A DNA stretch of 55,885 nt from positions 112,098 to 167,982 of the forward strand of contig CANRFA010000003.1 of the NCBI GenBank assembly GCA_947629775.1. Direction: 5' to 3'. Each line of letters starts with the position of its first letter. Position 1 is the stretch's first letter. Position numbers and translations under genes: made by a program. The stretch is from an uncultured Oscillospiraceae bacterium. GTDB lineage: Bacteria; Bacillota; Clostridia; Oscillospirales; Oscillospiraceae. The notes beneath the pieces were generated by a model, which was not told the DNA's origin, did no database searches, and worked only from the letters and a program-made list of their open reading frames with translations. Of the stretch, positions 1 through 6,757 are shown piece by piece.

Positions 1-1583
1 CAGAAGTACACGTTCGCCAGCGCCGTTGCCTTGTGCATACAGCAGATGAACGTAGCCCGCTTGTTCAGGCACTTAAAGTGCTGGTAGTTGTATGCCGAGC
101 AGTTATGGACAATGGCCCCGTTCGCCACGTAGGTGTGAGTGCCTTCCACCGTCAGGTTGTAAACGGTCTCGCTCTCAGGCACGTCCAGATCGCACGGATC
201 CACCTCAGCCCACGTGCAGCCTCCAGGCTCGTACAGGGCGATCTCGTCTCCCGGAATCAGCTCCCCAGCCGGAATCCACTCCTCGGATTCGTCTCTCCTG
301 GTCCGGAACGGATGCTCCTTCGTAACCAGCGTGGCAGGGAATCCGGCTGCTTTCACATACACAAGATCCTCACGGCCCACCGTCCGCTCCATGTTAGCGG
401 AGATCGTCTGAGTATCGCCGTTCCCGTCAGTGACCTCATCTCCGGGCTTCAGCGTCTCAATATCCCGCAGTCCGGCGGGGGTTGCCACCTTCGTACCGGC
501 GGGAAAGCACCAGGCGCAGCCCTTTCCGATGGGGCAATTGATGCACTCCTCCGTAGACTGGCTGGTTCTGGTCATACACTTGAGGCAATCTACCCAGTGC
601 TTCTGCTTCTCGGTAGCCTCTAAGCCTCCCTCAACAGTACCAATGATGATTGGCTCTACGTCATTTCCAAGAGAGCTCTCCATGTACCTCAGACAGGGAA
701 AGAGGTTGCCCCTCCAGTCTACCGCCAGCATATCCCCATTACCACCGCACCAGTTCTTATCGTCATCCTTTGCCGGGTCAAAAGGCATATAATAATCTTC
801 ATCGTACAGACGGATGTATACGTTCTCAGATCTGCCGGTTCTAAGCAGAGCGTCACTGAGTTTCTTCATCTGGTTATAGAGCACTGAAGCGTGTTCTAAC
901 GTCCATCCTTCTTCGTAAACGCAATTCACAAAAATCTCGTCATAGCCAAGATTCAGAAGGTTCCAGATGGCATCCGCTGTATATCCGATATTCGCAGGAG
1001 CCAACGTCATCTTACAGCTGATGGGCTCGAAGTGCTTCATATAGTGCAGTGCAGCACCCGCAGCCAGATCATAGCTCCCAGTCCCATCGGGGAACACCCG
1101 GCAGGAATCATGGAGGGTGCGGTTCCCGTCAATCGAAACCCCAAGACAGATCCAGGGACCAAACTCCCGTAAGTACGCCTGCACCTCCGGCTGAAAATAC
1201 AGAGTCCCATTAGTGGAGATACAGATACGGAAGAACCTCAGCCAAGGGTGCTTCTCCCGGATCATTTTCTCAAAGGCATACTCCGTAATTTCCCTTATCA
1301 GTTTGATAGCCATGAACGGCTCTCCACCGATAAACTCCAGTATGAGGCCGTTCGTGTTCTCGTAGTTGATATAGAGGCTGTCTCCTCTCAGAAGCATATC
1401 TATGAACTGCTTCGCCAGATCAATGTCCATATAGTTATGAGCCTTATTAATCTGGTAGCAATACGAGCAGCATAAGTTGCAGGCGTCAGTCACCTGCATC
1501 GTTACGCTTCTGACCTTCTTCCCGCTCTTATCCGGGAACAGCCTGCCTACCTGATCATTATAGTTCTCAGGCTTTTCCTTCAT
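1..1583 (-). CDS. Radical SAM/SPASM peptide maturase interrupted by an intein (C-terminus outside window)
   Basis: The reading frame is open for 527 codons from ATG at 1583 and runs off the left edge. Residues 35-42 hold the radical SAM cluster motif CNLCCSYC (CX3CX2C, C35, C39, C42), followed by a GGEPF motif typical of the fold. From about residue 345 a SPASM-type cysteine cluster begins (CINCPIGKGCAW) and is broken by an in-frame intein (residues 359-494); the host protein resumes with CSAYNYQHFKC. Such enzymes bind two or more Fe-S clusters and form thioether or other crosslinks on peptide substrates in the cytoplasm. The start overlaps the stop of the upstream gene as ATGA, so translation is probably coupled, and a Cys-repeat candidate substrate lies two genes upstream. 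The fit to the family that modifies CXXX-repeat peptides is inference; the enzyme class is clear. Confidence 0.93.
   Translation of the reverse strand, partial: MKEKPENYNDQVGRLFPDKSGKKVRSVTMQVTDACNLCCSYCYQINKAHNYMDIDLAKQFIDMLLRGDSLYINYENTNGLILEFIGGEPFMAIKLIREITEYAFEKMIREKHPWLRFFRICISTNGTLYFQPEVQAYLREFGPWICLGVSIDGNRTLHDSCRVFPDGTGSYDLAAGAALHYMKHFEPISCKMTLAPANIGYTADAIWNLLNLGYDEIFVNCVYEEGWTLEHASVLYNQMKKLSDALLRTGRSENVYIRLYDEDYYMPFDPAKDDDKNWCGGNGDMLAVDWRGNLFPCLRYMESSLGNDVEPIIIGTVEGGLEATEKQKHWVDCLKCMTRTSQSTEECINCPIGKGCAWCFPAGTKVATPAGLRDIETLKPGDEVTDGNGDTQTISANMERTVGREDLVYVKAAGFPATLVTKEHPFRTRRDESEEWIPAGELIPGDEIALYEPGGCTWAEVDPCDLDVPESETVYNLTVEGTHTYVANGAIVHNCSAYNYQHFKCLNKRATFICCMHKATALANVYF
102..509 (-). 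other. Class 1 mini-intein (136 aa) inside the radical SAM/SPASM protein
   Basis: The insert starts with Cys1 in block A (CFPAGTKVATPAG), has block B with the TxxH signature (VTKEHPF), a C-terminal block F (VYNLTVEGTHTYV) and ends with the splicing motif AIVHN followed by Cys+1 (CSAYNYQ). All residues needed for standard splicing (Cys1, block B Thr and His, penultimate His, terminal Asn, +1 Cys) are present. There is no room for a homing endonuclease. Removing it joins GCAW to CSAYNYQ and restores a compact SPASM cysteine cluster, so the +1 nucleophile is probably also an iron-sulfur ligand. Confidence 0.93.
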
Positions 1584-1879
1584 TCGTGCTCGCCCCCTGA
1601 CAGTTCCTCACAGAACAAAGTCCTGCTCTTGTAGTTCACTTTGACATTCTGCACCTGACGCCCTTTGAAGTACTTCTCCGCTAACTGCTCGTGAAGCACT
1701 TCCAAGTCAAGATGCTTCTCTACAAACAGGCGAAAGTAATACTCCCTGTTCGGCAAGCTACGGGTGTCTATCAGATGAAGTATGCATTTAAGATTGTTGA
1801 TCTCAAATACAAGAGCCTCCGCACGGTTGGCCTCATCCTCGCTGATATCAGCTCTGACAGGCTTCCTTAAGTTTCCCAT
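1580..1879 (-). CDS. Small helical protein of the Cys-peptide cassette, unknown function
   Basis: This 99-residue protein has an ATG at 1879 behind a strong GCAGGAGG site and its stop overlaps the radical SAM start (ATGA). It looks largely helical with a charged, hydrophobic middle (about residues 20-65) and contains only two cysteines. I do not recognise it with certainty. Known CXXX-repeat peptide systems carry a small accessory protein of about this size next to the maturase, and its position fits that role or a recognition or chaperone function. That is inference from context only. Confidence 0.75.
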   Translation of the reverse strand: MGNLRKPVRADISEDEANRAEALVFEINNLKCILHLIDTRSLPNREYYFRLFVEKHLDLEVLHEQLAEKYFKGRQVQNVKVNYKSRTLFCEELSGGEHE

Positions 1880-1899
1880 AAACCTCCTGCCTCCAATCG

Positions 1900-2607
1900 T
1901 CAGGAAACTATGATCTTCTTATATAGATCCTGGATGTACTTGATGTATGTCTGCATCTGGCTGGCAGAAAGAACTCCTTTCTCGGGAGCTGCCCCCGTGT
2001 ATCCACCAGTCTTGCAATTCTTATGGATTGAGTCCAGCATCTCTCCTGTAATTGGCTGCTCCGCAACTGCCGTCTTCTGGTCCTTGGTCAGCCTGCGCCT
2101 GTTCAGTTCCCGGACTATGCTATTCTCAATCTCATTTACATCGCTTGCCCTTACAATAGCATCCAGGACTATATTCTTGCCTAAATTCGTATAGACACTG
2201 GTCATAGTAGAAGCCGTGCATCCGTTATCGCAGTTCCCGGTACAGTTCCCCGTACAGGCCGTACAGTTATAGGAGCAGCTATCACCACAGCCGGAGCAAC
2301 CATCGCAGCCATTGCAGCCATATCCGCACCCGTAACCGCACCCGGAACAACCATCACAACCATCGCAGGAATAGTCACAGTATCCGCCACAGCCGGAGCA
2401 ACCATCGCAGCCATCACAGGAAGATCCGCAGCCAGAGCCACAACCGGAGCAACCGTCACAGCCTCCGCTGCATCCACTACATCCACGTCCACAGTTATAC
2501 GAACAAGTATCGGAGCAACCAGGATCACACTGGCTATCGCAATTACCTGAGCAGGAGGTCCCGCAAGATGCTCCTCCACAAGCGCCACTACAACTACTAC
2601 AGGCCAT
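1900..2607 (-). CDS. Cys/Gly-repeat protein, candidate precursor substrate of the radical SAM maturase
   Basis: The 235-residue product has 36 cysteines within its first 130 residues, spaced almost only as CxxC and CxxxC, with Gly, Ser, Asp and Asn between them. Four tandem units of 17-18 residues (CDGCDGCSGCG plus a variable half) cover residues 46-114. A cysteine-poor helical region of about 105 residues follows. ATG at 2607 is preferred over a TTG at 2613 because GGAGG sits 9 nt upstream of the ATG but only 3 nt before the TTG. The gene overlaps the upstream one by 11 nt. With the radical SAM/SPASM enzyme two genes downstream, a thioether-bridged RiPP is the most economical reading. An unmodified metal-binding or disulfide-rich structural protein is the alternative. 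The C-terminal region shares a short motif with the neighbouring paralogues. Confidence 0.85.
   Translation of the reverse strand: MACSSCSGACGGASCGTSCSGNCDSQCDPGCSDTCSYNCGRGCSGCSGGCDGCSGCGSGCGSSCDGCDGCSGCGGYCDYSCDGCDGCSGCGYGCGYGCNGCDGCSGCGDSCSYNCTACTGNCTGNCDNGCTASTMTSVYTNLGKNIVLDAIVRASDVNEIENSIVRELNRRRLTKDQKTAVAEQPITGEMLDSIHKNCKTGGYTGAAPEKGVLSASQMQTYIKYIQDLYKKIIVS
2266..2472 (-). repeat. Four tandem 51-54 bp repeats encoding Cys/Gly units
   Basis: Codons 46-114 of the Cys-rich gene consist of one 54-bp and three 51-bp units. Each encodes a conserved CDGC-SGC core followed by a variable stretch (GSGCGSS, GGYCDYS, GYGCGYG, GDSCSYN). In-register repeats like these allow copy-number change by slippage or recombination. 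Confidence 0.85.
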
Positions 2608-3055
2608 CCACAAACACCTCCAGTTGAGTTCTCAATACAGCAAGCTTTTCGGAATTATTTGTCAAAAGGCACATAAAGGTCAGAGAGCTGGCGAGTCTGG
2701 AAAAGTCGTAGTCTCCATCAAACATGCCTTCCTTAATGTTTTCCTTTACCCAGCTGTCCATTTCCTTGCTGTCTCTTCTTCTCCATACCATAGATGCATC
2801 AAGTTCCAGGATCTGTTCTTTCTTGAACTCAATGCAATCCAGGTTATTCAGCAGGAAAAGAATCACATTACCACCACGGGCGATTTTCTCATCGCTGAGC
2901 TTTAATGCATCCTCTACTGCTTCCTTTTGATCATCAGTCAGAACCATAGAGTTGAGCCTCTCGCAGAGCTCCTGCAGGTTCTCTGTAGTCCCGCTTTGAA
3001 TGGACTCCTCAATTGTTATCACGTCAGACAGGACACTAATCCACTGTTCGTCCAT
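2597..3055 (-). CDS. Small helical protein, paralogue of its upstream neighbour, unknown function
   Basis: This 152-residue protein starts at ATG 3055 behind CAGGAGGTG. It aligns along its length with the 153-residue product just upstream: a conserved LN...L segment near residues 34-47, an N-x-L-L-N-L-type segment in the middle, a shared W-(V/L)-(K/E)-x-N motif and an M-(F/Y)-D-G motif near residues 110-114. Its segment LNSMVLTDDQKEAV matches LNRRRLTKDQKTAV in the C-terminal part of the Cys-rich protein at 9 of 14 positions. No known family is recognised. Position suggests a partner or recognition protein for the Cys-repeat substrate. Confidence 0.8.
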   Translation of the reverse strand: MDEQWISVLSDVITIEESIQSGTTENLQELCERLNSMVLTDDQKEAVEDALKLSDEKIARGGNVILFLLNNLDCIEFKKEQILELDASMVWRRRDSKEMDSWVKENIKEGMFDGDYDFSRLASSLTFMCLLTNNSEKLAVLRTQLEVFVDGL

Positions 3056-3078
3056 TACAGTTCACCTCCTGATGTTAT

Positions 3079-3540
3079 TCAACCCGCCTCTTCTAAGAGG
3101 ATCGAGCGAATATCAGCCATCTTATCATACCGCTTGGCAATTCTGCAAAGCATAATCAGGCTCCGCACATACTGAAGCTTGTTAGCCCCACCATCGTACA
3201 TATCCGGAGAAACATTTGCTTCCAACCAATGATCTGCTTTCTCAGCGTTTTCTGAGGCAATTATCCCCATCACCTCCAAAACACTTAGCTTGTTCTCCCG
3301 GTCATCAACGTGGGTTAAGTTTGATATGACATAGCGGATATTTTCCTCGCTGCTTTCATATATCTCATAGATTGCAGACAAAACAATGTCGTTAACCGTT
3401 TTCCTGCTCGGTTCATCCAGGACTAACCCATTCAGCGCTTCGCAAATCTCGCTTGCTTTTCCGCTGTTTTGTCCTGCGTGCATACAAGACTCCAGGTCAA
3501 TTGCATAGGTAAGGAACTTCGCTTGGTTCGTATCCAGCAT
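3079..3540 (-). CDS. Small helical protein, tandem paralogue, unknown function
   Basis: ATG 3540 (MLDTNQAKF) is chosen over an upstream in-frame start at 3591 because GAAAGGAGG lies just before it and because 153 residues matches the 152-residue paralogue downstream. The two proteins share spacing of hydrophobic segments and a W-L-E-x-N ... M-Y-D-G motif near residues 115-125. It is the first gene after the fibre genes, so it inherits late transcription. No recognised domain. Function unknown; likely part of the Cys-peptide cassette. Confidence 0.78.
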   Translation of the reverse strand: MLDTNQAKFLTYAIDLESCMHAGQNSGKASEICEALNGLVLDEPSRKTVNDIVLSAIYEIYESSEENIRYVISNLTHVDDRENKLSVLEVMGIIASENAEKADHWLEANVSPDMYDGGANKLQYVRSLIMLCRIAKRYDKMADIRSILLEEAG

Positions 3541-3557: not shown

Positions 3558-4187
3558 TCAGGGTGCCCACACAGCATGTACGCCCTTCCATGTCCCTCCG
3601 TCATAATACTTCAGGACACTGGACGTGTTTGTATCTACCCAGAATAACTTCGTATCCGTAGGGGTATCTCCCTTTACTTCAACGTGTTTTACGTCTCCCA
3701 TCGCTTCCTGGGCAGCCTGTTGGGCCTTTTCTGCTGCTTCTTCCGCCTTCTTCGCTGCTTCGTCAGCGTCGGCTTTCGAATCAGCTGCGTCCTGCTTGGC
3801 CTGCTCCGCAGAGCTCTTCGCGTCTTCTGCCATCTTTTTGGCCTCGTCCGCTGTCGTCTTGGCCGTTCCCGCAGTTTCGGAAGCTGCATCAGCTGTATTC
3901 TTGGCAGTATCAGCCGTGGATTTCGCTGTATCAGCTGTTCCCTTGGCTTCCTCTGCTATCCTCTTGGCTTCCTCCGCCGTCTGCTTCGCCTCATTTGCAG
4001 TCCCTGCAATTCCATCAGCTGTTGTCTTTGCCTGCTCCGCAGTGCTCTTGGCGGTATCGGCGGTATTCTGCGCAGTCTCAGCAGCCGTTTTGGCCTGGTT
4101 CGCCGTAGACTGAGCGGTTTGGACCTGGACCTTTACTTCCTCCAGATCTTTCCCAACCTTACCGGGAGCGTTAGTTAAGCCTTTCAT
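3558..4187 (-). CDS. Alanine-rich coiled-coil tail fibre protein
   Basis: This 209-residue protein consists of repeated TA-x-TA-K heptads over residues 20-155, predicting a long trimeric or dimeric coiled coil. Its last 40 residues (LFWVDT ... KYYDG ... VHAVWAP) match the C-terminus of the 850-residue fibre encoded immediately upstream, which suggests a shared tip or chaperone-binding module duplicated between the two genes. A GAGAGGTGG site precedes ATG 4187. It is probably a virion fibre or fibre accessory at the distal tail. Confidence 0.8.
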   Translation of the reverse strand: MKGLTNAPGKVGKDLEEVKVQVQTAQSTANQAKTAAETAQNTADTAKSTAEQAKTTADGIAGTANEAKQTAEEAKRIAEEAKGTADTAKSTADTAKNTADAASETAGTAKTTADEAKKMAEDAKSSAEQAKQDAADSKADADEAAKKAEEAAEKAQQAAQEAMGDVKHVEVKGDTPTDTKLFWVDTNTSSVLKYYDGGTWKGVHAVWAP

Positions 4188-4204: not shown

Positions 4205-6757
4205 CTACGGTGCCCAGACCGCATGGACTGGAACCCAGCTGGTTCCATCATGGTATTTCAGGATCTTTTCGTTTGCGGTATCTATCCAGAACCGCTTCTG
4301 GTCAGACGGCGCTGCATCCGCTGCCTGAATATGGGAGGCCTCAATCTTTGCCGTAATGGTACAGTCCGCCGTCCCATCAAAGCTCGCTGACCCGGATACC
4401 TCTCCGGTCAGCTTGATATTATGGGGCGTAGCCAGCCCAACCGCTTTGCCGTCCGTCCTTCCGGTTCCTCCCTGCTCAACGGGGACAGCTCCGGACATCT
4501 TGCTTCCGTCCAGCTGTGTAATGGTGATATTGATATCACCTGACCCGTCAAACGTGGTTGCTGCGCTGGTAGCCCCGCCATTGATCGTGATCTTAGGGGC
4601 GTTTGTCAGCTTGTCAGCCGTTGCGGATGAAGTTGCCTTGCCGTCAAACGTAGCTGCCTTGACCGTATTTGTAGACGGGTTGACCGTGACCCCAGTCCCG
4701 AACAGGGAGGTCTCCGTAGCAGTCGCAGTCCCCTTCGACAGAAGCACCGGAAAGGCTTTGTTCTCAGCTGAGAGCGTCTGCGTAACCTTTGTATCGTCAG
4801 GGATCGTAATCGTCTGCTCTACAATCCCGGTCACTCGCCCCTTCTCGTCTACTGTAACCTGCGGGATGTTGAATGACCCGCCAGGGGCCGGGCTGGCTGC
4901 GCTGCTGCCGTAAGTACCGGCAGTTGCTCCGCTGTCAGGTAGAGTGGCCTCAATAGTCACGTTTGTTGTCCCGTCAAAGGATACAGAGCCGTTTATATCT
5001 CCCTCTAACGTGATATCTCTTGGATCAATCAGACCTGAAGCCTTCCCGTCTGTCCTGCCACTGCCACCCTTTTCCGGAGGCACGGGCCCGGACAGCAACT
5101 CTGGATCCACAGCCGTAACCGGGATTGTGATATTGTCAGTCCCGTCAAACATCGTTGGCGTCCCTGTGACCCCACCTGAAAGGGAAATGGTCCTTGCCGT
5201 TCGCAGAGCGGTGGCCGTCCCGGAGTTTCCGGCGATATTCACCTGGAATGGATGTACATGGTCCTCACGGGCGTACTTCTCAGAAGTCCCCACGATAGCC
5301 ATCTGACCAGGTGGCAGTGGAAGCTCAACCGCCCCCACGTAGTTGGTGCTGTTGTCTACGCTCCAGCTGATATAAACCCAGTAGGATCCATCAAACTGGT
5401 ACATACAGTATCTGCCAGCTGTACCTGCGTATTGCAGATTATCTGTTTTTATGGTTTCTGTATTGTACCAGACAAGATGGGCTCCGCTCCCTGCAATATT
5501 AAAGGTAGGGTGTCCGGCTGTATTCGTCTCCGTGAACAGGATGGAGATAAGCGCTCCAGGCATCAGCCTCCAGTTGGAATCCGAGCTCGTCAGAGTGATC
5601 TCTTTCGCAGCTACGTCACCTGCCGTAGCGCAGGTTCCAACAGCGATATTGGTATTGTCCAGCTTTGCCTTATCCTCCGGAGACATAAGCCCTGGCTCAT
5701 CCCCGGTAGACTCCTCATACGTGGTATCAGTTGGTATTATCCACTCTCCATCCCCTCGCAGGAACGCTGCCTGCTTTCCGGCTTCCGGCGCAGGAACGAG
5801 GCCAGATGTGCCAGGAGCGTTGGAGCTGGCCCCAGTCATAGTCTGATACTTCGTATCCACGTCCCTTGGGAGGGTAATGGAGGAGTTGATTACTTTCGTA
5901 ATCCGCCCCTTCTCATCAACTGTAATCTGAGGCACTGCGAACGAGGCTCCCTGCTCCGGCTTGATGGAGGGGCTGCCATAGGTGCCGGGTTCCGCCCCTG
6001 TAGGCTCCAAAGAAGCGGTGATGACAGCATCCGCCGTCCCGTCAAACAGCGCCCGGCCAGTCACATCTCCGGTCAGCTGAATATCACGGGGCGTCTCCAG
6101 CTTTGTGGCTGTATCAGCATTACCCTCAATATCCCCTGTTGGAGCCACATAATCCTCGCCAGGCACGGCTTCTCGGATCATGCCATTCTCGCCCACCAGC
6201 AAACCGGACAGGTCAGTAGCTGTATCTCCACCCACAGTATTAGGTCCAGCCGGGCCTCTCTCACCCTGCGGCCCCTGAATATTGACCCGTGTCGTACCCG
6301 GATCCGGCGCTCCAGATGTGTCTCCATCCTCTACTTTCGTCCAGGTTATCTCGCCTTCTTCGCTGACGGACGGCACCCAGGCGTCGCCGGTAGCGCCTTT
6401 CGGACCCATAATGTTTACTCCCTGGGGCACAGTGGAGGCGTTCTTGGCCCAGGTAAGATCGCCCTCCAGGCTGACGGACGGCACCCAGGTATCGCCAGAG
6501 ATTCCCTGTGGTCCTTGCGGTCCGGTGGGTCCCTTCGCTCCGTCGAAAGTGCCATTGTCCAGCTTCTCCTGCATGGTTTCGCCATCTTCAAAGGCAACAT
6601 CCTCTGCCGGGTGCGTATGCCCCTTGTCTGACTTCCGGTTGTCCAGGTCCTGAATGGCAGCCGTTACGGTCGCCATCATCTCCCGCATGTAGTTGAGCGT
6701 AAAGGTTTTTACAGCCTCCAGACCGGATTTCAGATGTTCAATGGTTATCAGGCGCAT
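4205..6757 (-). CDS. Large tail fibre with collagen-like segments
   Basis: The 850-residue product begins with a helical section, then collagen-like GPxGPQG stretches (about residues 75-175), then several beta-rich repeats with the recurring pattern 'L(T/E)G(D/E)(V/I)xGxxxFDGT' and 'PQ(I/V)TVDEKGR(I/V)T', common in long phage tail fibres. The C-terminal 40 residues end in VHAVWAP and recur in the next gene. This is the probable host-recognition fibre, attached to the baseplate. ATG 6757 follows CTGGAGGTAAG. Confidence 0.9.
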   Translation of the reverse strand: MRLITIEHLKSGLEAVKTFTLNYMREMMATVTAAIQDLDNRKSDKGHTHPAEDVAFEDGETMQEKLDNGTFDGAKGPTGPQGPQGISGDTWVPSVSLEGDLTWAKNASTVPQGVNIMGPKGATGDAWVPSVSEEGEITWTKVEDGDTSGAPDPGTTRVNIQGPQGERGPAGPNTVGGDTATDLSGLLVGENGMIREAVPGEDYVAPTGDIEGNADTATKLETPRDIQLTGDVTGRALFDGTADAVITASLEPTGAEPGTYGSPSIKPEQGASFAVPQITVDEKGRITKVINSSITLPRDVDTKYQTMTGASSNAPGTSGLVPAPEAGKQAAFLRGDGEWIIPTDTTYEESTGDEPGLMSPEDKAKLDNTNIAVGTCATAGDVAAKEITLTSSDSNWRLMPGALISILFTETNTAGHPTFNIAGSGAHLVWYNTETIKTDNLQYAGTAGRYCMYQFDGSYWVYISWSVDNSTNYVGAVELPLPPGQMAIVGTSEKYAREDHVHPFQVNIAGNSGTATALRTARTISLSGGVTGTPTMFDGTDNITIPVTAVDPELLSGPVPPEKGGSGRTDGKASGLIDPRDITLEGDINGSVSFDGTTNVTIEATLPDSGATAGTYGSSAASPAPGGSFNIPQVTVDEKGRVTGIVEQTITIPDDTKVTQTLSAENKAFPVLLSKGTATATETSLFGTGVTVNPSTNTVKAATFDGKATSSATADKLTNAPKITINGGATSAATTFDGSGDINITITQLDGSKMSGAVPVEQGGTGRTDGKAVGLATPHNIKLTGEVSGSASFDGTADCTITAKIEASHIQAADAAPSDQKRFWIDTANEKILKYHDGTSWVPVHAVWAP

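Follow-up and report, generated by a model that had tools for sequence, protein, structure and literature searches.

In the window, the 55,885-nucleotide stretch of DNA analysed here, a five-gene cassette lies within the late, tail-gene run of a myophage (Table 1). The original prediction named two paralogous helical proteins, a Cys-rich protein, a protein of 99 residues and a radical SAM/SPASM enzyme, and all five genes are present. The P0004 and Cys-array genes overlap by 11 bases and the P0002 and radical SAM genes by 4 bases. A GGAGG site precedes four of the five starts, the exception being that of the enzyme gene. The cassette had been placed downstream of the tail fibres. Tail fibres do lie upstream, but a collagen-like tail fibre, more fibre-like proteins and a CHAP/SH3-type endolysin (all judged by eye) are encoded 3' of the enzyme gene. 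Because these genes follow the enzyme, the cassette is inside the late run and not after all of the fibres.

Table 1. Features of the cassette and its upstream neighbours in the window
Feature	Position	Strand	Basis or remark
Five-gene cassette: P0005, P0004, Cys-array protein P0003, P0002, radical SAM P0001	1-3540	minus	listed in transcription order
P0005, helical paralogue, 153 aa	3079..3540	minus	phmmer
P0004, helical paralogue, 152 aa, overlaps start of Cys gene	2597..3055	minus	phmmer
Cys-array protein P0003, 235 aa from ATG: array and C-terminal domain	1900..2607	minus	
Cys array, 36 Cys	2218..2601	minus	spacing of 2 or 3 residues, with a single gap of 4
C-terminal domain with E..RR motif, like the L139 and L053 domains	1903..2211	minus	alignments, profile comparison
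P0002, putative small partner protein, 99 aa, phage branch of TIGR04116 kind	1580..1879	minus	profile comparison
Radical SAM/SPASM maturase P0001, first 527 of its 569 aa in window	1..1583	minus	TIGR04115; remainder in L003
CxxxCxxC motif (C35, C39, C42), radical SAM core	1458..1481	minus	
Mini-intein, residues 359-495 (137 aa), splits SPASM region at GCAW/C	99..509	minus	Hint_2, PT-HINT, TIGR01443
Coiled-coil tail-fibre-like protein, upstream neighbour	3558..4187	minus	PHROG tail fibre, 7e-17
Tail fibre, 850 aa, upstream	4205..6757	minus	PHROG tail-fibre and structural families

The Cys-array protein contains 37 cysteines. As predicted, 36 of these form a single tandem run with C-x2-C/C-x3-C spacing (residues 3-130). 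No other window ORF of at least 60 aa contains a Cys run above 5 (257 ORFs, own caller). Compared with its sister in L139, the gene has 95, 96 and 154 differences at codon positions 1, 2 and 3 (228 codons), and this excess at the third position is as expected of a coding frame. The dense C-x3-C repeat adjoins the maturase, with the array gene two genes upstream of the enzyme gene. No NCBIfam model, TIGR04114 included, matches P0003 up to E=1, and its phage relatives match the curated CXXX-repeat target models (TIGR04114/04117/04118) only below the cut-offs. The C-terminal domain, aligned with those of L139 and L053 (three sequences), scores 89.9 percent by hhalign against the array-domain family and 96.8 percent against the C-terminal domains of L052, L141, L144 and L146; all hhalign E-values in this study are from single comparisons. 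The HMMER array-domain profile at E 0.01 misses the window, L139 and L053. In most other phages a domain precedes the array, and the window domain appears to be related to it through intermediates only. A structure model of the array domain does not match the one solved chain with which it was compared.

The radical SAM/SPASM enzyme scores 374.4 bits against TIGR04115, the CXXX-repeat maturase model, and exceeds the NCBI cut-off of 350, in agreement with its predicted identity as a peptide maturase. The proposed model search succeeds for the enzyme but not for its neighbours, as P0003 has no match to TIGR04114 and P0002 none to TIGR04116; the PapB model (NF047865) scores below its cut-off. The TIGR04115 cut-off is also passed by the L341, L043, L139 and L052 enzymes and is nearly reached by those of L034 and L118. 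No characterised TIGR04115 member was found in the literature. The enzyme gene runs off the window at base 1. C35, C39, C42 and the SPASM cysteines align with those of L034 and L035, and one SPASM cysteine lies after the intein. The intein itself scores 36 bits against TIGR01443 (cut-off 15.6) and has the features of a class 1 mini-intein: Cys1, a terminal HN, Cys+1 and a length in which an endonuclease would not fit. The earlier mention of a spliced enzyme is thus borne out. Some relatives have no intein, L341 for example. In a tree of 142 rows, the domain-type enzymes form one clade of 61 rows (SH-aLRT 99) that is separate from the cellular enzymes. The SPN3US-like and other distant phage enzymes fall outside this clade.

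The 99-residue protein probably belongs to a phage family that is distantly related to TIGR04116. A profile of 32 phage homologues matches P0002 at 1.3e-6 (single-target search), and the phage partner family matches cellular TIGR04116 at 96 percent by hhalign (E 1.4e-9, single comparison). P0002 alone reaches 78 percent against the phage family and 1 percent against cellular TIGR04116, and in the NCBIfam scan it has no match to the TIGR04116 model (cut-off 50 bits). Among ten small proteins scanned against this model, only the cellular L035 protein passes (104.6 bits). In one contig, the partner forms the N-terminus of the enzyme (L044, same contig as L318).

The helical proteins P0004 and P0005 are paralogues, as proposed (phmmer 3e-13), but they are not constant across the cassettes of relatives. 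No relation was found between them and sixteen "190-residue" proteins of other cassettes, and their relation to a 153-residue protein upstream of the L139 array is weak (hhalign 38 percent). The gene order surveyed in other phages is accordingly conserved in part: the array, the small protein and the radical SAM gene recur, but the helical paralogues do not do so consistently.

The pairing of array and maturase recurs in many unrelated phages, among tail genes. An array lies within 5 kb of the enzyme in 22 of the 22 close viral enzymes (E<=1e-40), which include two copies, L048 and L049. For more distant enzymes, an array is within 5 kb in 4/11 and 7/47 cases, and one of the latter seven (L081) is low complexity. 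A reciprocal search seeded on the array-attached domain of about 105 residues recovered 41 contigs, 40 with an array and 36 with the enzyme; its seeds were drawn from enzyme-bearing loci, both queries contained the first array stretch, and the tblastn confirmation may favour array-bearing matches. Second rows of the same contigs are excluded from this count (L353, L357-L360, L362, repeats of L319-L322, L324). The enzyme-positive contigs include L325 and L363, despite in-frame TAG codons that break the gene under table 11. Four of the five contigs lacking the enzyme are interrupted at contig ends. L330 has an array but no enzyme in the flanking 8 kb on each side. Copies seem to account for six of the 41 contigs, which share coordinates and scores with others (L334-L336, L340, L343, L347), and without them the array is present in 34/35 contigs and the enzyme in 30/35. 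An array is present in 88 of the 90 ORFs with the domain (67 of the 90 are distinct). Homologues of the Cys-rich protein that consistently lack the radical SAM gene, named at the outset as evidence against the proposed system, are not the pattern observed, since the enzyme occupies the same locus in 36 of the 41 contigs.

The arrays are regular in spacing. Across 65 arrays, 2,179 of 2,204 Cys gaps are 2 or 3 residues long, under a run caller that permits up to 5. Cys columns are retained in 21/21, 21/21, 34/34 and 40/44 cases, versus 59, 65, 82 and 59 percent for the remaining columns. Asp and Glu are scarce (2.7 and 0.7 percent of residues), and phage arrays reach 144 cysteines. The phrog_6085 profile matches the arrays of L056, L123, L251 and L132, and weakly 6/16 domain-plus-array starts. 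This family covers the repeat only, and its annotation gives neither a function nor a maturase.

In four of the 17 array proteins scanned, the array is on a virion-type protein: a tail fibre (L056, 2.7e-32), tail proteins (L251, 3.3e-11; L084, 1.2e-6) and a Hoc-like head decoration protein (L100, 1.5e-89). The other 13 match no named virion family. All four fusions are in relatives and none is in the window phage, and two of them (L084 and L100) have only distantly related enzymes. Among the 25 families listed for upstream neighbours (n=73), 17/17 named families are tail, baseplate or structural. Among the families listed for downstream neighbours (n=45, with L326 and L124 left out as second radical SAM genes), endolysins make up 12 of the 17 named. 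In SPN3US-like phages, which infect enterobacteria and Erwinia, two tandem arrays lie beside virion genes in 6/6 genomes read. Annotation misses these arrays in five of the six. Escherichia phage vB_EcoM_EC001, whose host is E. coli, carries arrays in ACEC001_1660 and ACEC001_1655. Their dN/dS is 0.06-0.15 in four comparisons, and a fifth is saturated. They adjoin putative virion protein 0167 and gp168; according to PMC5694885, gp168-170 are baseplate/tail-fibre candidates that mass spectrometry detected in virions. The arrays are missing from the published list of SPN3US virion proteins, an absence that is uninformative either way, as the list was presumably made from the deposited genes, which lack them.

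The cassette probably encodes a virion-surface appendage that is matured by the radical-SAM enzyme. Sequence comparison points to this through the enzyme and partner families, their close pairing with the array, the conserved cysteines and the virion-type fusions in some other phages. The Cys-array protein would be produced late, together with the tail proteins, and its domain with the E..RR motif may dock it to the maturase, the virion or both. The maturase would be active only after the intein splices out. Assisted by the partner of about 100 residues, the enzyme would work along the array and convert its cysteines to carbon-sulfur cross-links, most likely thioethers. Cross-linking could yield a stiff rod or tip from a segment in which hydrophobic residues, around which it might fold, are nearly absent. 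The product would be carried on the exterior of the particle, in this phage as in others, most often on or beside the tail fibres, and may help adsorption.

A phage-borne RiPP toxin is unlikely. Here, the array would be a cross-linked antibacterial, released at lysis or injected against competitors, and the helical paralogues would be immunity proteins. The enzyme family modifies peptides, the cellular relatives are small peptides or Tat-signal proteins, and the downstream endolysins and a weak match of P0005 to the immunity family Tsi6 (E 4.7e-4, under the gathering score) are consistent with this reading. However, P0004 and P0005 are inconstant across the family, some phages have the array fused to a tail-fibre, tail or Hoc-like protein, and arrays of up to 144 cysteines are found. 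Apart from further arrays and one protein of 387 residues, no ORF lying between array and enzyme exceeds 225 aa, which is too short for an ABC exporter.

It is also unlikely that the array acts on the particle as free thiols or as metal or Fe-S ligands (for example in binding to host or mucus surfaces through disulfides), with the enzyme adding another, sparse modification. Retention of the cysteines while other residues drift agrees with such a role, as do the array on a Hoc-like protein and the gut origin of some matches (MT835573, gut genome titles). The enzyme, however, is nearly always present and belongs to the maturases that NCBI associates with CXXX repeats. The even Cys spacing is probably stricter than a thiol brush should require, and mucus cannot be the common theme because of the enterobacterial and Erwinia hosts of SPN3US-like phages. 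A metabolic helper role for the radical SAM gene, with the Cys gene as a bystander, is very improbable. Such a role is suggested for SPN3US-like SPFM phages in PMC6614189 (citing Lee et al. 2011), and in Campylobacter phage CP220, whose many radical SAM genes are described in PMC2853527, the single site read (L367) contains no array. Both the array beside every close enzyme and the reciprocal search argue against a bystander, as does the partner protein, which seems to be of a kind found in peptide-modification systems.

The pairing suggests that such viruses build part of the particle from chemically cross-linked peptide. Whether the appendage forms a wider class is evenly balanced. This class would consist of structural RiPPs in which a radical-SAM enzyme has cross-linked a ladder of cysteines. 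Its members would occur on the tail fibres, tails and head-decoration proteins of tailed phages that are unrelated to one another (myophages of gut Firmicutes, jumbo phages like SPN3US and recoded phages). Small bacterial natural products are the known setting of radical-SAM peptide maturation, and in phages a branch of it appears to act for the virion. If so, virions contain covalent building material that is not made through ordinary folding, and jumbo-phage radical SAM genes now catalogued as metabolic extras gain a concrete substrate.

No phage system of this make-up was found described in open-licence PMC text, in line with the original prediction; subscription journals and preprints lie beyond that text. 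The bacterial CXXX-repeat system (TIGR04115 maturase, TIGR04116 partner, TIGR04114/04117/04118 targets) resembles the cassette in its maturase, which passes TIGR04115, in a partner family that profile comparison suggests is homologous to TIGR04116, and in a target with a C-x3-C repeat rich in Gly, Ser and Thr. Unlike the cellular enzymes, the phage domain-type enzymes form their own clade. The phage target is larger, has its own domain and contains up to 144 cysteines (the cellular set reaches 31), and C-x2-C makes up 25 percent of its gaps, versus 7 percent in the cellular arrays. Cellular L035 has TatA/TatC, whereas the window has neither these nor a Tat signal on the array protein. Many cellular CXXX-repeat enzymes bear a second radical-SAM half that is missing from the window enzyme.

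The PapB ranthipeptide maturase is the second-best family of the window enzyme (170 bits, cut-off 340). PapB forms Cys-to-Asp/Glu thioethers, according to PMC9413430. Phage arrays have almost no Asp or Glu, so the acceptor in the array must differ. The SPN3US-like jumbo phages (Seoulvirus, Erskinevirus, Machinavirus, Derbicusvirus) resemble the window in their arrays, two of which lie in tandem, flanked on one side by a virion protein gene and on the other by radical SAM genes. They differ from it in a more distant enzyme (TIGR04115, 126 bits), another array N-terminus and the presence of two radical SAM genes.

The five-gene cassette lies on the minus strand of a myophage with PHROG matches for tail sheath, tape measure, baseplate wedge, portal, head protease and terminase. 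It runs from P0005 and P0004 (paralogous helical proteins) through P0003 (the Cys-array protein) and P0002 (a 99-residue small partner) to P0001 (the radical SAM/SPASM enzyme), and is flanked on both sides by tail-fibre gene regions. P0001 runs past the window edge and is 569 aa at full length; beyond it, a collagen-like tail fibre, more fibre-like proteins and an endolysin are assigned by eye. In P0003, residues 3–130 hold 36 Cys with gaps of 2 or 3 (once 4), followed by a domain of about 100 residues. This array is the sole such Cys run within the window. Modules common to neighbouring tail-fibre-like proteins suggest module swapping around the cassette.

P0001 exceeds the cut-off of the CXXX-repeat maturase family TIGR04115 (374 bits; cut-off 350). 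Its second-best family, PapB, scores 170 bits, under the PapB cut-off. Among 60 genomes searched, its own included, only its own contains a TIGR04115 match over the cut-off. Inteins of phage maturases occupy three different sites, each immediately ahead of a conserved Cys that is presumably an Fe-S ligand.

Coordinates of features in the window and in related loci
Locus	Position	Strand	Feature
Contig C3	112098-167982		The window, end of the contig
Window	99-509	-	Mini-intein, P0001 residues 359-495, within SPASM region
Window	3079-3540	-	P0005; weak Tsi6 immunity-protein match (E 4.7e-4, under gathering score)
Window	3558-4187		Tail-fibre-like protein (a)
Window	4205-6757		Tail-fibre-like protein (a)
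L003	10515-11888		Tail-fibre-like protein (a)
L338	4813-7209		Maturase, intein at W/CGG
L352	10221-13811		Maturase with two inteins, at W/CGG and second Cys of CxxxCxxC
L325	9567-10850		In-frame TAG, apparently sense (b)
L363	8001-10200		In-frame TAG, apparently sense (b); enzyme stretch read, exact ends not located
L060	7001-8347		TGA apparently sense (b)
L035	2222-6270		Deposited as phage: Tat-signal CXXX protein, two radical SAM genes, TIGR04116
L064	3651-4766		Hint-like domain fused C-terminal to array
L100	8041-9744		Hoc-like head decoration protein with N-terminal Cys array, immediately after distant radical SAM gene
(a) N-terminal or C-terminal modules in common; two of the three share the C-terminal end ..FW.DT....LKY.DG..W..VHAVWAP. 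(b) In enzyme or array frame.

An alignment search of viral contigs with the enzyme covers at least 80 loci. An array here means at least 8 Cys in which gaps of 2 or 3 account for at least 70 percent; it was counted when no more than 5 kb from the enzyme. Among the matches listed, an array is present at all 22 loci with E ≤ 1e-40, at 4 of 11 with E 1e-40 to 1e-18, and at 7 of the 47 weaker ones; of those seven, L081 is low complexity. Arrays also lie near the enzyme in eight of 11 phage-collection records picked by enzyme match (L034–L037, L364–L369, L371). One of the eight, L035, is probably cellular (Bacteroidota) rather than phage. It also carries TatA- and TatC-like genes, by eye, and its gene set looks as though Tat exports a folded CXXX protein. 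In gut phage MT835573, the array, a 202-aa protein, a 94-aa protein and the enzyme lie amid tail genes, in an order much as in the window.

Most arrays are attached to a domain of about 105 residues with the pattern E..RR...P...E...K, whose profile matches 16 of the 22 enzyme loci with E ≤ 1e-40. The domain is N-terminal to the array in most loci and C-terminal in L052, L141, L144 and L146. The window, L139 and L053 also carry a domain C-terminal to the array, and the three resemble one another at 43–44 percent over the whole protein. The HMMER domain profile does not match these three; by hhalign they score 89.9 percent against the domain family and 96.8 percent against the C-terminal type, which itself scores 98.4 percent against the family.

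A reciprocal search, using two sub-alignments with DNA patterns located in the domain, yields 41 distinct contigs. The array is in the same ORF in 40, and the enzyme is in the locus in 36. The remaining contig, L363, carries TAG codons in frame, and the array start is seen in the frame read. Four of the five contigs without the enzyme stop 0.2–1.9 kb downstream. L330 lacks the enzyme although 8 kb is present on each side, and is a genuine exception to the pairing. Over all loci examined, the domain profile finds 90 ORFs (67 distinct); 88 contain an array and the remaining two are short fragments.

A quick tree was built from 142 enzymes. The window enzyme and all 51 rows with a profile-detected domain in the locus group there in a single clade of 61 rows (SH-aLRT 99). 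L139 is sister to the window enzyme (support 99). For a separate clade of 49 mostly cellular enzymes (support 91), the targets are either short peptides of CXXX type or CXXX proteins with a Tat signal. SPN3US and other distant phage enzymes fall outside both clades; deeper forks are often weak and branches long, so these positions are unsure.

The commonest gene order is array, sometimes a protein of about 190 residues, a protein of about 100 residues, and enzyme; the enzyme comes first in some loci. The phage family of about 100 residues is probably homologous to TIGR04116, the cellular maturase partner (96 percent, E 1.4e-9 by hhalign). P0002 matches the phage family at 1.3e-6 when it is the sole target of the search and at 78 percent by hhalign; its direct hhalign score against cellular TIGR04116 is 1 percent. 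In one contig (L044 = L318), a partner-type protein forms the enzyme N-terminus.

SPN3US, phiEaH2, Caitlin, CR5 and Phobos have two tandem arrays, with runs of 15–21 Cys, flanked by a virion structural protein gene and two radical SAM genes. These five records leave all ten array ORFs unannotated and call other frames or the opposite strand instead. The five RefSeq records of SPN3US-like phages with missed arrays (L364, L365, L366, L368, L037) carry hypothetical proteins there in the wrong frame or on the opposite strand, and in the first four the arrays are followed by an annotated third paralogue, short and with few Cys. Escherichia phage vB_EcoM_EC001 has both arrays annotated, as hypothetical proteins. 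The dN/dS of SPN3US-like arrays is 0.06–0.15 in four comparisons. By gene order, the arrays adjoin SPN3US gp168–170, which PMC5694885 gives as baseplate/tail-fibre candidates among 86 virion-found proteins. Radical SAM genes are read as metabolic helpers in papers on SPN3US-like phages (PMC6614189) and on Campylobacter phages (PMC2853527).

Among the 25 PHROG families listed for 73 upstream neighbours (each with at most 8 proteins), all 17 named ones are tail, baseplate or structural. The 43 downstream neighbours have 25 families listed (each with at most 3 proteins); 17 are named, and 12 of these are endolysins. The scan of 17 array proteins gave a named virion family for four: a tail fibre in L056, tail proteins in L251 and L084, and a Hoc-like head decoration protein in L100. 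Five others hit families that have no assigned function, and eight have no match.

For composition, 65 non-identical arrays from domain-bearing ORFs were used, excluding the window array, with a run caller that permits gaps up to 5. They contain 2,269 Cys; gaps of 2 or 3 make up 2,179 of the 2,204. By residue, C accounts for 27, G for 24, S for 17 and T for 11 percent, with Asp/Glu at 2.7/0.7 percent and Pro, Trp and large hydrophobics each at most 1 percent. Cys columns are kept in four pairs (21/21, 21/21, 34/34 and 40/44), with other columns 59–82 percent identical. Cross-linking fits, because apart from Cys the array segment has little to fold around.

The genes, their families, the array–enzyme pairing, the sequence conservation and the fusions in relatives are read directly from sequence. 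We infer array modification, the bond type, a place in the virion of the window phage and a role in adsorption. The cassette genes would be co-expressed late and the enzyme spliced, removing the intein. The partner may help the enzyme bind the array, S-C bonds would form repeatedly along it, and the product would be assembled onto the particle.

No account of such a phage array–maturase system was found in PMC open-licence text. NCBIfam already knows the maturase family and what it does in cells. PapB links Cys to Asp/Glu (PMC9413430), whereas the phage arrays are nearly without Asp/Glu. Because these acids are lacking, PapB-type chemistry is not transferable to the arrays, and the acceptor must differ.
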